NCBI GenBank assembly: GCA_014190235.1
Contig: BJGC01000005.1
Span: 1-64,000, forward strand
DNA: 64,000 bases
DNA from: Actinomycetes bacterium
Lineage (GTDB): Bacteria > Actinomycetota > Acidimicrobiia > Acidimicrobiales > Ilumatobacteraceae
Direction: 5' to 3'
The position numbers and the translations under genes were made by a program. Each line of letters opens with the position of its first letter. The first letter of the stretch is position 1. The notes below the pieces were generated by a model that worked only from the letters and a program-made list of their open reading frames with translations, was not told the DNA's origin and did no database searches. This document shows, piece after piece, positions 9,855-14,296 of the stretch.

Positions 9855-10424
9855 ATGGCCGTCATTGACATTGCTGGATTTGTTTCTGTTCTTAAGAGCC
9901 ATGCCGTTGATCATGGCTTCCATGTCCATGATGAGCGACACTTTGTCGAGACCTACTCGCTGCGTCAACTATGGGAAGTCGACCTCCACCCTGCCGAAGC
10001 CTGCAACGGGCCAATTGACCTGCATCTGAGCCTCGAGATCGATCCGCGCGCGTTGTTGGGCTTTGAAGATGAAATCCTCAAGCAAGATGACCCCGATGCT
10101 GAGCCGCCAGACGGATTCAGTTTTCCACTCATTTTCACGTGGACATTCCCGCCGCTGTTTTCGCCACCCGACTTGTTGGTGCTCGCCACAGAGATCGCTG
10201 GTGTTGGCGGACTGCAATTACCACTTGAAGTATCTGCAATTGATTCGTATCACTCCGTCACCGATGCTCCCGAGCGAAGCCTCAGTATTGTTGGAAGGAT
10301 TGCGGTGTCATTAGCAAATGTTTTTCGTGGCACAGACGAGGATTTTTATGACGTGTTTAACAAATGCAGAGACGTCAGCCTTGATCTCCTCGAACGCGTG
10401 CCGAGCTGGTTAGACGAGCACTAA
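9855..10424 (+). CDS. Conserved-looking hypothetical protein, 189 residues
   Basis: I do not recognise this protein. It is acidic and soluble, without signal peptide or transmembrane helix. It contains a Pro/Phe-rich centre (FSFPLIFTWTFPPLFSPPDL, residues about 90-110) and ends in an acidic helical region (DEDFYDVFNKCRDVSLDLLER). The ATG at 9855 gives an uninterrupted frame with codon use like its neighbours. It starts 16 bp from the divergent phosphatase gene and ends 3 bp from the convergent histidine kinase gene, which supports a real gene in a tightly packed locus. Confidence 0.75.
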   Translation: MAVIDIAGFVSVLKSHAVDHGFHVHDERHFVETYSLRQLWEVDLHPAEACNGPIDLHLSLEIDPRALLGFEDEILKQDDPDAEPPDGFSFPLIFTWTFPPLFSPPDLLVLATEIAGVGGLQLPLEVSAIDSYHSVTDAPERSLSIVGRIAVSLANVFRGTDEDFYDVFNKCRDVSLDLLERVPSWLDEH

Positions 10425-10427
10425 TTG

Positions 10428-11831
10428 TCACGTGCTCTCGTGCGCAGACAACAATGTCACTCGCGCGCATAATCCGACATGATCTTTACGCGGAAGTAAT
10501 GCAGCAGACCCACCACTCGCCGTTGCCAACTGCTGCACGATAGCCAGGCCTAGCCCGCTACCACCCTCGTTCTGTGTAGACGCACTACGCCAAAAACGCT
10601 GAAATGCGACCACGCATTGTTCAGGTGTTAAGCCTGGACCACTGTCGCAGACATCAATTTCGACCTGCACGCCTTTGTGTCGTACGGTGATCTCAATTGT
10701 TGAACCAGATGGCGAAACCGAAAGCGCATTATCAACAAAGTTGTCGATCATTTGTTCAAGTCCACCGTCAACGACGCGACATCGCGATAAAGAGTCAGCC
10801 GCAACAGAGATTGTGATGTTTTTTTCTTCGGCAAGCGGTTGCCACATCAGAGCACGATCGTAAGCGACAAGGGCTGCATCTGCATCAACGGTGGGTGCGT
10901 CTCCACCCTCAAGTCGTGCAAGGGCAAGAAGCTGCTCAATCATTGACTGCAACCGATCTGTCTCATGACGCGAGGCGTCTAGGGCTTCACGTAGCTCTTC
11001 TGACTCACTCCCGGCAATAGCCTGCGCTTGCTCAAGTCTCAGCCGCAGTGCTGTGAGGGGCGTGCGCAATTGGTGCGAAACATCTCCAGCAAAAGAACGT
11101 TGACTCTGAAGAATTGCACTGAGTCGACCCGCCATCACGTTAAATGAGCGTGCAAGTTCTCTGATTTCAGGCGGACCTTGGGCATCTGAAGCTCGCGATT
11201 GCATATCGCCTGCCGATAACTTTTCTGTCGCAGTTGTTAAGCGGCGCAACGGACGGGTCAGAGTGTTGGCAAATAAGACGGCGGCGATAGTAGCCATCAA
11301 AAGCGAAATTGCCCCGACAAGTAAAATTCCCCAACGCTGGCGCTGCACGCGCTTGTCAACAAAAGATTTCGGATACGAGAGTCGAACTGCGCCAATCACC
11401 CTGTCGCCGCTTTGAACCGGCACTGCCACATACACCAACGTTTGTCCGAGTGTTTGAGACGCACGCTGACCCGTGGCCGGAACGCCCGTGAGAGCCATAC
11501 CAACTTCAGGTCGATTGGCGTAGGTTTCGCCGATCTCTACGGCTGAATCATTTGAACTCACTACTAGGCCTATGGCATCCGTTACCACGACAAGAGCAGC
11601 ACTTGTTTTTGAAAATTCGTCAAGAGCTGGCTGCAGAGACGGAAGTGCCACGCCTGCTGACGAGTTCAGAGATTCTTTGGCATGTCCTGCCAAGATAAAT
11701 GCGTCGCGTTCCAGAGCAGTAGTGAGACGATCTCGTTCGACGCGACTCAAGTATGACGCAAGGGGAACATTGTGCACCGCCAGCACGATGATAACCACCC
11801 CCAAAAGAGCTCCGATGAACCTGCGTTTCAT
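10428..11831 (-). CDS. Two-component sensor histidine kinase
   Basis: This 467-residue membrane kinase has an N-terminal transmembrane helix (residues 5-25), an extracytoplasmic sensor region to about 165, and a second helix (ILLVGAISLLMATIAAVLFA). A HAMP linker (NTLTRPLRRLTTATEKL), the H-box FAGDVSHQLRTPLTALRLRL (phospho-His near 257), and the N and G boxes of the HATPase (DNFVDNALSVSPSG, DSGPGLTPE, GGSGLGLAIVQQLA) follow. Its ATG overlaps the response regulator stop as ATGA, so the pair is translated together. The signal sensed is unknown. Confidence 0.95.
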   Translation of the reverse strand: MKRRFIGALLGVVIIVLAVHNVPLASYLSRVERDRLTTALERDAFILAGHAKESLNSSAGVALPSLQPALDEFSKTSAALVVVTDAIGLVVSSNDSAVEIGETYANRPEVGMALTGVPATGQRASQTLGQTLVYVAVPVQSGDRVIGAVRLSYPKSFVDKRVQRQRWGILLVGAISLLMATIAAVLFANTLTRPLRRLTTATEKLSAGDMQSRASDAQGPPEIRELARSFNVMAGRLSAILQSQRSFAGDVSHQLRTPLTALRLRLEQAQAIAGSESEELREALDASRHETDRLQSMIEQLLALARLEGGDAPTVDADAALVAYDRALMWQPLAEEKNITISVAADSLSRCRVVDGGLEQMIDNFVDNALSVSPSGSTIEITVRHKGVQVEIDVCDSGPGLTPEQCVVAFQRFWRSASTQNEGGSGLGLAIVQQLATASGGSAALLPRKDHVGLCARVTLLSAHEST

Positions 11832-12502
11832 ACAGTCAATTCAACAAACTTGAAACCAACTCCTCGCACCGCTTGAATCCAGTCGGGGCTCGCAAGTTTT
11901 TTACGAATAGCAGCAATGTGCGCATCAAGGGTCTTTGTGGTTCCGTACCAGTTGATATCCCACACATGCTCAAGAATATCGCTGCGTCGAAACACGGTTC
12001 CGGGTTCGGACCACAGATAAGCCAAAAGGTCAAACTCTTTTGTGGTGAGATCAATTGTTGCTCCGTCAAGAGTCACTATTCGAGTTCGTTCATCAACAAT
12101 GAGGCGCCCATCACGTGGTGTTGACCCGATGACATCAGCATCTCCCAAACTGCGGCGCGTCACTGCTTTGATGCGCGCAGTAAGTTCACGCAGGCTAAAT
12201 GGCTTCACTACATAGTCGTCGGCACCGAGTTCAAGACCGAGAACGCGATCAAGTTCGTCGCCCCGCGCACTTACAATAATAATCGGCACGAGAGAGAGTC
12301 CGCGCAGAGCCTTGCACAGATCTAAGCCATCCATGTCCGGAAGTCCAAGGTCGAGCAACACAACATCTGGAGTGCCCAGCGATAATGCGTCAAGAGCGGC
12401 GCGGCCCGTCGATACGTGGGCAACCTCCATCCCAGCACCTGTGAGACCGACAACGACGGAGTCTGCAATTGACTCGTCATCTTCAACAAGAAGCACTTTC
12501 AC
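11828..12502 (-). CDS. OmpR/PhoB-family response regulator
   Basis: About 224 residues from the GTG at 12502, which places KVLLVEDDES directly at the N-terminus as usual; a longer frame to 12562 would add 20 atypical residues. The receiver domain has the acidic pocket (EDD), the phospho-acceptor Asp in VVLLDLGLPDMDG, the Thr/Ser in IIIVSARG and the Lys in DDYVVKPFSLREL. The C-terminal winged helix (DLTTKEFDLLAYL to TLDAHIAAIRKKL, then VRGVGFKF) binds DNA. It is first in the operon with the kinase. An 11-bp-spaced direct repeat lies just upstream. Confidence 0.95.
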   Translation of the reverse strand: MKVLLVEDDESIADSVVVGLTGAGMEVAHVSTGRAALDALSLGTPDVVLLDLGLPDMDGLDLCKALRGLSLVPIIIVSARGDELDRVLGLELGADDYVVKPFSLRELTARIKAVTRRSLGDADVIGSTPRDGRLIVDERTRIVTLDGATIDLTTKEFDLLAYLWSEPGTVFRRSDILEHVWDINWYGTTKTLDAHIAAIRKKLASPDWIQAVRGVGFKFVELTV

Positions 12503-12560
12503 GGTCTCTAGTGTGGTCGCTCGTTGCCTAAATTCCCCTACTACTCCCAGATGTCTACTC

Positions 12561-12580
12561 ATCTTGGATGAATCTTGGAT
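12561..12580 (+). promoter_or_regulatory. Candidate response-regulator operator: ATCTTGGAT direct repeat
   Basis: ATCTTGGAT occurs at 12561-12569 and again at 12572-12580, a period of 11 bp, one helical turn. Tandem half-sites with this spacing are the usual targets of OmpR/PhoB regulators. It lies between the divergent response regulator gene and the Asp-tail gene, about 70 bp before the latter's start, with an AT-rich TTAATGTAAT near 12611-12621 that could hold its -10. Confidence 0.5.
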
Positions 12581-12651
12581 ATCCCTCTACTCCATCTCAG
12601 GAATACGTTCCTTAATGTAATGGGTGTCGGCATTCGCCACGAGGAGGACAT

Positions 12652-13233
12652 ATGAAAATTGGAATCGTGACAGCACTCTCTCTGACGGGAGTTCTTGCCG
12701 CTGGTGCCGCCGCATTTGCGGTGAACTCAAACGTCTTAAATGGCACATCGGATCTCGCTGCCGGAATCACCGCAAACTCAATTAACTCGTTGTCTGTTGA
12801 CCTCATGGCCTCGCCGAGTACAACATCTTCGGCAACCGGAATCACCACGTTTGCTGCGGGTGACTCTGGCAGCGTCATTATGGAAGTACGTTCTGGCATC
12901 ATTGTCGTCAAAGATGTCATCGCCAACTCGAATTGGACTGTTGAGTCTCCGATGACCATGCCCAACGGCGATGTACAGGTCCATTTTAATAGCGGGACCT
13001 CGCGCACCGAACTGAACGCCACGCTCGTCGATGGCGTAATCAAAGTGAGCGTGACTGACGATTCTGGGTCATCATCCCCAGTCGGAGTTCAACCTAACAA
13101 GCCGCGCAACTCCTCGTCAACAACGCCACCCACTAACAACTCTGATGTCTCTGGTGGGCTTACTCCTGGCAAGAGCAACTCTTCCTACGATGATGATGAT
13201 GATGATGACGACGATGACGACGACGATGACTAA
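12652..13233 (+). CDS. Exported protein with 14-aspartate C-terminal tail
   Basis: The 193-residue protein has a strong ribosome binding site (GAGGAGG) and an N-terminal hydrophobic export segment (MKIGIVTALSLTGVLAAGAA). A body of about 100 residues follows with beta-strand patterns, containing GSVIMEVRSGIIVVKDV and TSRTELNATLVDGVIKVSV. A Ser/Thr/Pro/Asn-rich linker comes next, then Tyr and 14 consecutive Asp residues to the stop. The Asp codons mix GAT and GAC, so the run looks selected, not only slippage. The acidic tail could bind calcium or other cations. It is divergent from a two-component system that probably controls it. Function unknown. Confidence 0.82.
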   Translation: MKIGIVTALSLTGVLAAGAAAFAVNSNVLNGTSDLAAGITANSINSLSVDLMASPSTTSSATGITTFAAGDSGSVIMEVRSGIIVVKDVIANSNWTVESPMTMPNGDVQVHFNSGTSRTELNATLVDGVIKVSVTDDSGSSSPVGVQPNKPRNSSSTTPPTNNSDVSGGLTPGKSNSSYDDDDDDDDDDDDDD

Positions 13234-13243
13234 GCGTTATTAA

Positions 13244-14296
13244 TTAATAAATGCACTCCACGCCGATGGAGTGATACCCCGTTGCCCCGCTGGGCTCTAC
13301 AGGGCGGATCTCTTCATCTTGTACAACACCTTTTGCGTCAGTGACTCGTGTCGTAAATATGTGCTGACCAGAGGTTGCAGTCCAGTTCAGTTTCCACTGA
13401 CACCATGTGTCTCCGGTTGGTGACTTTTCAATCTGTGCTGGCAGCCACGGCCCATCGTCAATGCGTACATCGACTGACTTCACACCAGCGCGTGGCGCCC
13501 ATGCGAATCCAGCAATCATCAACGGACCAGTTTTTATCTGTGCTCCATTACGCGGAAGATCGATGCGACTTGATGACAACATTGGTCCTTCTTTGGCCCA
13601 ACCACGATCAATCCAATATGCATCGAATGCATTCCACGTTGTGAGTTCGATCTCGTTTACCCACTTTGTTGCCGACACATAACCAAATAATCCAGGCACC
13701 ACAATGCGCACTGGGAATCCGTGTTTGGGGATGAGTGGTTCGCCGTTCATCGTGGTCACCAACATTGCTGGACGACCGTCCATGATGGCATCAACAGGAG
13801 TTCCACATGTCCATCCATCGACGCTTCTGCTCACAAGTTGTTGCGCTCCTGACTGCACGCCGCATGATCGCAACACATCGGCAAGCAAAACACCACCCCA
13901 CTGAGCAGTGCCAATCAGATTTCCGCCGACTTCATTTGACACACATCCCATTGTGATGTCATTGGCTACTTGAGGTAGTGAATTTATATCATCAAGCGTG
14001 AGACGTTTTTCTGTATCGACCATGCCATGAATTCGCAGGTTCCATGTCGAAGCGTCTACTTGCGGGATCTCGAATGCAGTATCAATGCGATAGAAATCTT
14101 TGACGGGAGTAATGAACGGTTCAAGTGTTGGTGCAGGCAATGTTGTCGGTGTTGCCAACACGGCTGATCCCGTGGATGTTGGTGTCGCGTTAAGCGAACG
14201 AAACGTGGCGGCAAGCACGCCTGCGCTGCCGAGCGCAACTGCTCCTCCGATAAATTGTCGCCGAGAAGCCCTGGGTGCCACGCCACTATTAAACAC
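13244..14296 (-). CDS. Tat-exported sulfite-oxidase-family molybdopterin oxidoreductase
   Basis: The protein has 350 residues with a GTG start. A twin-arginine signal (SRRQFIGGAVALGSAGVLAA) directs folded export. The molybdopterin domain contains the Mo-ligating Cys118 in MGCVSNEVGG, then GTAQWGGVLLADVLR and GFPVRIVVPGLFGYVSATKWV. The C-terminal part is an immunoglobulin-like dimerisation domain (VDVRIDDGPW to TTRVTDAKG). This fits the SorA/YedY-like sulfite oxidase superfamily; sulfite, other S-oxides or methionine sulfoxide are possible substrates. No heme subunit is encoded nearby. It converges on the Asp-tail gene with 10 bp between. Confidence 0.92.
   Translation of the reverse strand: MFNSGVAPRASRRQFIGGAVALGSAGVLAATFRSLNATPTSTGSAVLATPTTLPAPTLEPFITPVKDFYRIDTAFEIPQVDASTWNLRIHGMVDTEKRLTLDDINSLPQVANDITMGCVSNEVGGNLIGTAQWGGVLLADVLRSCGVQSGAQQLVSRSVDGWTCGTPVDAIMDGRPAMLVTTMNGEPLIPKHGFPVRIVVPGLFGYVSATKWVNEIELTTWNAFDAYWIDRGWAKEGPMLSSSRIDLPRNGAQIKTGPLMIAGFAWAPRAGVKSVDVRIDDGPWLPAQIEKSPTGDTWCQWKLNWTATSGQHIFTTRVTDAKGVVQDEEIRPVEPSGATGYHSIGVECIY

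Follow-up and report, generated by a model that had tools for sequence, protein, structure and literature searches.

A two-component switch facing an acidic-tailed protein and its association with putative flavin and heme electron-transfer genes in the Ilumatobacteraceae

In a member of the family Ilumatobacteraceae (order Acidimicrobiales), the genes of a sensor kinase and its response regulator face a gene for a putatively exported protein with a long aspartate tail, here called ACID. Across relatives, the switch, the acidic protein and flavin/heme reductases are linked through their neighbourhood and, within a single genus, through a shared promoter. On balance, it appears probable that the two-component system activates a flavin/heme module for extracytoplasmic electron transfer, with the acidic-tail protein encoded by its first gene. 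The locus lies in a stretch of 64,000 nucleotides, hereafter called the window, and its features are collected in Table 1.

As had been described in the initial annotation, a two-component system stands opposite a gene for a protein that ends in 14 Asp; the kinase and the OmpR-type regulator are encoded on the reverse strand and the acidic protein by a 193-aa open reading frame on the forward strand. Both regulator domains scored above the Pfam cut-off (Response_reg, E = 5.9e-27; Trans_reg_C, E = 1.9e-22). The gap between the regulator and ACID genes of the window carries CATCTTGGATGAATCTTGGAT; copies of ATCTTGGAT are found at 12561-12569 and 12572-12580, 11 bp apart, with their TTGGAT half-sites at 12564 and 12575. 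The ATG at 12562 that was listed as the regulator start is not conserved, and relatives have in common a GTG at 12500-12502, so that the repeat is entirely intergenic. The oxidoreductase gene that converges on ACID is probably a neighbour rather than part of the system. On the other side, a 189-aa protein (MAVIDIAGFVSVLKSHAVDHGFHVHDERHFVETYSLRQLW...) encoded at 9855-10424 on the forward strand adjoins the kinase; it gave no Pfam match and recurs at this place in 8/12 genus loci displayed.

Table 1. Features of the focal locus, in window coordinates
Feature	Positions	Strand	Remarks
Sensor histidine kinase, 467 aa	10428..11831	-	HAMP, HisKA, HATPase_c; weak sub-threshold Cache_WalK
OmpR-family response regulator	11828..12502	-	Conserved GTG start at 12500-12502
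Putative regulator -10, CACACT	12510..12515	-	7 nt before GTG; inferred from comparing 33 loci
Tandem direct repeat TTGGAT-N5-TTGGAT, putative regulator box	12564..12580	+	11-bp period
-10 hexamer TAATGT	12613..12618	+	32 nt after the repeat
Ribosome-binding sequence of ACID, GAGGAGG	12641..12647	+	By inspection
Acidic-tail protein (ACID), 193 aa	12652..13233	+	Open reading frame
Putative N-terminal hydrophobic export/anchor segment of ACID, MKIGIVTALSLTGVLAAGAAAFAVN	12652..12726	+	Strongly conserved; by eye
Six-stranded beta domain of ACID, residues about 60-138	12829..13065	+	Structure model
14-Asp tail, mixed GAT/GAC codons	13189..13230	+	Sequence
SoxC/SorA-like molybdopterin oxidoreductase, convergent	13244..14296	-	Domain search

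Forty neighbourhoods were fetched from relatives and compared together with the window (41 loci, 39 of which hold ACID), and the genes of the kinase, regulator, ACID, SMALL (a small protein described below), ApbE and the focal oxidoreductase were labelled in them. The match in genome G027 covers the tail alone and was not counted as an ACID gene. Regulator-ACID intergenic regions were comparable in 33 loci from seven genera of the family, 14 of them from one genus; the eight loci without a usable region were L069, whose regulator start was not located, L077, L078, L085, L093, L094, L101 and L102.

The TTGGAT-N5-TTGGAT pair was present without mismatch in 12 of the 33 regions, with one mismatch in 13, with two in four, with three in three and with five in a single locus (L072). 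Pairs with zero or one mismatch occurred in 25/33 real regions versus 0.05% of 6,600 shuffles, and pairs with zero to three mismatches in 32/33 versus 8.1%, the shuffles being dinucleotide shuffles of the 33 regions (single letters where no path existed) from which the relatedness of the loci was not removed. Loss of the repeat in relatives, an outcome that would have spoken against the initial proposal of a PhoB/OmpR-like box, was not seen. A TANNNT hexamer follows the repeat at a distance of exactly 32 nt in 32/33 loci (33 nt in the remaining one), as compared with 0.6% of shuffles. Only two other TANNNT occurrences were observed among offsets 5 to 55, both at 23, and this test is independent of how the repeat pair was picked. 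Spacings between TTGGA-like pairs were 11 bp (30), 22 bp (5) and 33 bp (5).

Regulators of the PhoB/OmpR family use 11-bp tandem direct-repeat boxes, and promoters at which a PhoB-type activator replaces the -35 element show a comparable layout. The present locus resembles them in several respects. Its regulator is made of a receiver and a winged-helix domain, its repeats recur about every 11 bp and keep a constant spacing to the -10, and the box precedes a -10 for which no -35 is evident. A third, though weak, half-site with the consensus TTGGAC is in register at +33, which leaves 10 bp to the -10. The position of the box suggests that it is bound by the adjacent regulator. To our knowledge, a TTGGAY half-site does not belong to any named regulator, and nothing on a TTGGAT regulator box was found in open-licence papers.

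In 7/33 loci, 7-8 nt separate the -10 from the ACID start, as they do in L096 and L103 if an MK start is assumed; the remaining loci, including the focal one, have longer ACID leaders. On the regulator side, the GTG comes 6-7 nt after a CACAAT-like hexamer (CACAAT, CAGAAT or GACAAT) in most loci. These short distances suggest leaderless mRNAs for the regulator and, in some loci, for ACID. The box is located between the two divergent promoters, and its distance to the regulator start varies yet keeps helical phase (R = 0.46, 0.59 and 0.61 for periods of 10, 10.5 and 11; 15 distinct distances), so both promoters may be controlled. Nevertheless, the explanation that the repeat serves solely for autoregulation of the regulator, or is the site of some other, unrelated regulator or of a sigma factor, strikes us as quite improbable, since the rigid 32-nt spacing points to the -10 of ACID and not to the regulator, and exact sites in 150 genomes stand almost only before ACID genes.

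These sites come from a blind scan of the 150 family genomes in which the whole promoter was used as the pattern with one mismatch allowed, and which yielded 60 sites versus 6 for the reversed pattern. Thirty-six of the 38 exact sites lie no more than 214 nt ahead of an ACID gene that the protein profile had detected independently, and one of the remaining two (L134) precedes a further ACID copy. The other (L122, at 1501; G098:C3) stands in front of a gene for a membrane protein of the DUF347 type, which may be an additional member of the regulon. The scan also placed exact sites in two loci dropped from the intergenic set, L085 (G129) and L093 (G069), and gave none for L094, L101, L102 and L069. 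As for the sites with one mismatch, half (11/22) precede an ACID gene. Three others, each from a different genome of genus g38, lie ahead of genes for proteins of about 500 aa that are of one type and whose start codons come 44-45 nt after the box; the one that was scanned (L111) has FAD and NAD domains, with Ferric_reduct just below the cut-off. The last eight have no explained target (three were inspected), which is about the control level. In L082 (G087), a single switch is followed by two tandem ACID copies, both of which have a box of their own, exact in one case and with a mismatch in the other.

In the focal genome (2.02 Mb), where a search for further pairs had been proposed, the exact pair occurs once and the 17-mer with up to three mismatches eight times, against zero for the backwards pattern. 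No clear link to a wider regulon was apparent around six of the seven further sites (2-3 mismatches); one falls inside the neighbouring oxidoreductase gene.

The protein search for ACID gave a match in 22/61 genomes and the profile in 62/150 family genomes representing 19/27 genera, some of the matches being partial. A regulator is present in 38/39 ACID loci, a kinase in 37/39 and ApbE in 25/39. The association of kinase, regulator and acidic tail, whose retention in relatives had been proposed as a check, is thus kept across the family, and partly across the order, where a kinase or regulator was found in 15/23 loci and ApbE in 7/23 (about 3 kb fetched); among these order-level loci, L158 alone combines a TTGGAY box with a -10 placed at +32. 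In the rest of the phylum, the beta domain of ACID is present once or twice; a kinase or regulator was seen at 2/12 of these loci and ApbE at none.

Within the genus, the gene order ACID-SMALL-ApbE was observed in 11 loci, and ApbE follows ACID in 11/16 ACID-bearing genomes. An intact open reading frame for a heme protein comes after ApbE in 5/7 displayed genus loci that have ApbE, L065 and L067 being without it. The heme protein is Ferric_reduct (PF01794) in the three loci scanned with Pfam (L079, L082 and L090), and ApbE (PF02424) was confirmed in L079. This recurrence of ApbE and a ferric-reductase-like protein downstream on the same strand in many relatives favours extracytoplasmic flavin/heme electron transfer over a free-standing cation sensor. 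The initial annotation, which had proposed a cation-binding or charge-sensing surface protein regulated by an envelope signal, is as a whole partly supported, its regulatory half being upheld.

The focal genome itself departs from this scheme. SMALL, ApbE and heme-protein genes are absent at the locus in the focal genome, in its closest relative G021 and in G013, and the pairing of PF01794 with ApbE is found at relatives' loci, not at the focal one. In the focal genome and G021, the SoxC/SorA-like oxidoreductase occupies the opposite strand where many relatives carry SMALL-ApbE; in G027 (L078) such an oxidoreductase fills the region, and no switch or ACID was found there. The focal oxidoreductase is nearer to SoxC/SorA than to MsrP and scores below all those family cut-offs. 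The focal genome has its own flavin cluster on contig 20, composed of a Ferric_reduct/FAD/NAD protein, an FMN_bind protein and then ApbE (L106 4007-6757). Its FMN_bind protein contains QGVSGAT, which is close to the canonical acceptor site except that Gln takes the place of the usual first Asp. No TTGGAT box was detected near this cluster.

Co-occurrence was assessed in 32 genus genomes, in which a kinase or ACID was found in 18 and any ApbE in 19. Sixteen have both, two the switch only, three ApbE only and 11 neither (Fisher p = 1.9e-4, uncorrected for relatedness). The two switch-only genomes are 63% and 80% complete, and in G023, one of the three with ApbE only, the contig ends beside ApbE. 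A contrast in FMN_bind between operon-less (3/3) and operon-bearing (1/11) genomes, p = 0.011, was dropped, the second ApbE type being present also in G006 and G003; counted by this second ApbE type, the proportions are 3/3 and 3/11 (p = 0.055).

The persistence of the switch with ACID in genomes that lack local flavin genes (the focal genome, G021 and G013) raises another explanation, in which ACID would be an accessory of the kinase, as a feedback or ligand-presenting partner, its tail binding divalent cations and reporting them to the kinase, and the flavin genes being later passengers. All 16 ACID-bearing genus genomes have a kinase (that of G006 is cut by a contig end), both kinase-only genomes are cut by contig ends, and the tails, rich in D/E and often H, have a divalent-cation type of composition. 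Against this, ApbE follows ACID in most of these same genomes, the box also precedes the flavin/heme-reductase-like genes of g38, and no conserved His or Cys pattern was seen in the tails. We consider a kinase accessory unlikely and retain control of an electron-transfer module as the preferred reading.

The ACID protein has no Pfam or NCBIfam match. The beta-rich body that had been predicted is borne out by confident modelling, two AlphaFold models, one of them with a pLDDT of 93.7, giving a six-stranded meander. A profile of this domain (A2) recovered it across the order and the phylum. Pfam run over 24 beta-domain members returned no family, single weak hits alone, and Foldseek on the ACID body gave nothing at E <= 0.001; sequence profiles of the PDB were likewise of no use. 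The best structural match, lmo2686 (4k15; Z 7.2, rmsd 2.9, 75 aligned), is within the usual noise and was not used to assign a fold. In other actinobacteria, the domain was also seen as tandem pairs in exported-looking proteins (L185, L186 and L193-L196). As to the putative N-terminal signal segment assigned earlier, an MK start, a hydrophobic stretch and AxA can be recognized by eye.

The tail varies in both length and composition. Its mixed-codon 14-Asp end is present as originally reported, and in an 89%-identical relative it is replaced by DDDDDDEHDDDDDEHDDDEHDDDDDDD, a longer and interrupted D/E/H tail. Such rapid change in length, together with the single uninterrupted GAY run of the focal tail, is what would be expected if the run were a functionless product of neutral triplet slippage of GAY codons. 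Nevertheless, at least nine D/E are present in the last 30 residues of 34/39 complete family members (L103, cut by a contig end, was omitted), and all 39 end in DD, so an acidic end and the final DD are retained from genus to genus despite differing codons and residues; absence of the tail in close homologues, which would have pointed to slippage, was not observed. The terminal DD is also found outside the family in 16/21 complete order-level proteins (L175 and L178, whose C-termini are incomplete, were left out). An overlapping SMALL start forces DD only where loci end in GATGAC-TGA, and loci ending in GACGAC-TGA, without ATG, keep it. Slippage without function is accordingly very improbable in our estimation, and we conclude from these comparisons that the length of the tail shifts quickly and that its acidity is maintained by selection.

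SMALL is a protein of about 130-300 aa, encoded between ACID and ApbE, with a single hydrophobic segment, a linker rich in Pro and Ala, and a C-terminus that is conserved. It was recovered 24 times from the 25 family loci with ApbE. Seventeen of the 24 terminate in GS, with or without one further residue (SSGSR, SNGSR, SSGSK, TSGSN, SSGS), five in SG or SGA (KASG, TSG, SSG, PSGA), and L091 and L094 differ; GS or SG thus falls within the last three residues in 22/24. Similar ends (TNGSR, TSGSN, THGSR, TGGS) are found in SMALL proteins of other families. Substrates of ApbE are described with the acceptor motif D-x-x-[S/T]-G-A-[S/T] (PMC12052999). This canonical motif was absent from every labelled protein of the 41 neighbourhoods, and the relaxed form [ST]GA[ST] was scattered (3/40 ACID, 1/13 labelled SMALL). 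PF04205 (FMN_bind) was considered as the local ApbE substrate and was not found at the locus; a match was obtained in 6/32 genus genomes (five over the cut-off), none on an ACID-bearing contig. SMALL is a candidate for an unusual flavin acceptor, which should be taken as a lead and not as a result. In a more speculative version, which we hold to be unlikely, the switch would run, in this order of actinobacteria, a flavinylation system with an unrecognised acceptor, the [S/T][S/N]GS end of the anchored SMALL would bear FMN as a flexible arm without the canonical motif, the acidic protein would gather metal or dock the acceptor, and the focal switch and ACID would have outlived the arm through a second flavin cluster acting in trans.

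Taken as a working model, activation of an electron-transfer module would proceed as follows. The membrane kinase would sense an envelope signal, redox or metal state being the likeliest class, and the phosphorylated OmpR-type regulator would bind the TTGGAT-N5-TTGGAT box. From its fixed place 32 nt upstream of the -10, the regulator would switch on ACID, taking over the role of a -35 element. In the form most often seen, the presumably co-transcribed module would comprise ACID, SMALL, the flavin transferase ApbE and often the ferric-reductase-like heme protein, and would move electrons outward via flavin and heme. ACID may be an exported accessory by which cations, or the electron acceptor, are held or presented at the surface; its tail, a putative disordered polyanion, might bind cations or dock partners. 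The focal species presumably lost SMALL, ApbE and the heme protein at the locus, and its ACID and switch probably work with the separate Ferric_reduct/FMN_bind/ApbE cluster of contig 20.

Flavinylation clusters and two-component control are already known in kind. In the MsrPQ system, the ferric-reductase-like MsrQ is under the OmpR-type two-component system HprSR. The present system is similar in that an MsrQ relative is associated with an OmpR-type two-component system and that a molybdopterin oxidoreductase, albeit a distant one, adjoins the focal genes. It differs in that this oxidoreductase is nearer to SoxC/SorA, convergent and without a detected box, and in that ApbE, which does not belong to MsrPQ, belongs to many relatives' loci. 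In addition, MsrQ-like clusters that combine a PF01794 protein with ApbE are reported as broadly conserved in Actinobacteria and as typically including a gene with an FMN-binding domain (PMC8238504). Many relatives likewise pair ApbE with a Ferric_reduct heme membrane protein at the locus; however, the genus loci have ACID and SMALL instead of a PF04205 gene, and a dedicated two-component system is present. The terms 'response regulator' and 'histidine kinase' are absent from the main text of PMC8238504. In the open-licence literature, nothing relevant was found on a link between two-component systems and ApbE, on the box, on the combination of ACID with SMALL, on a missing canonical acceptor or on such tails.

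For these uncharacterised small-genome actinobacteria, the locus provides a testable regulon with one box, a fixed promoter geometry and a short list of targets that points to envelope electron transfer. It also ties both an unannotated beta domain that is found phylum-wide and a deeply conserved acidic tail to flavinylation. Finally, an ApbE left without a canonical substrate has as its neighbour a small protein whose C-terminus is conserved, and finding the acceptor of this ApbE would widen the known specificity of the enzyme.
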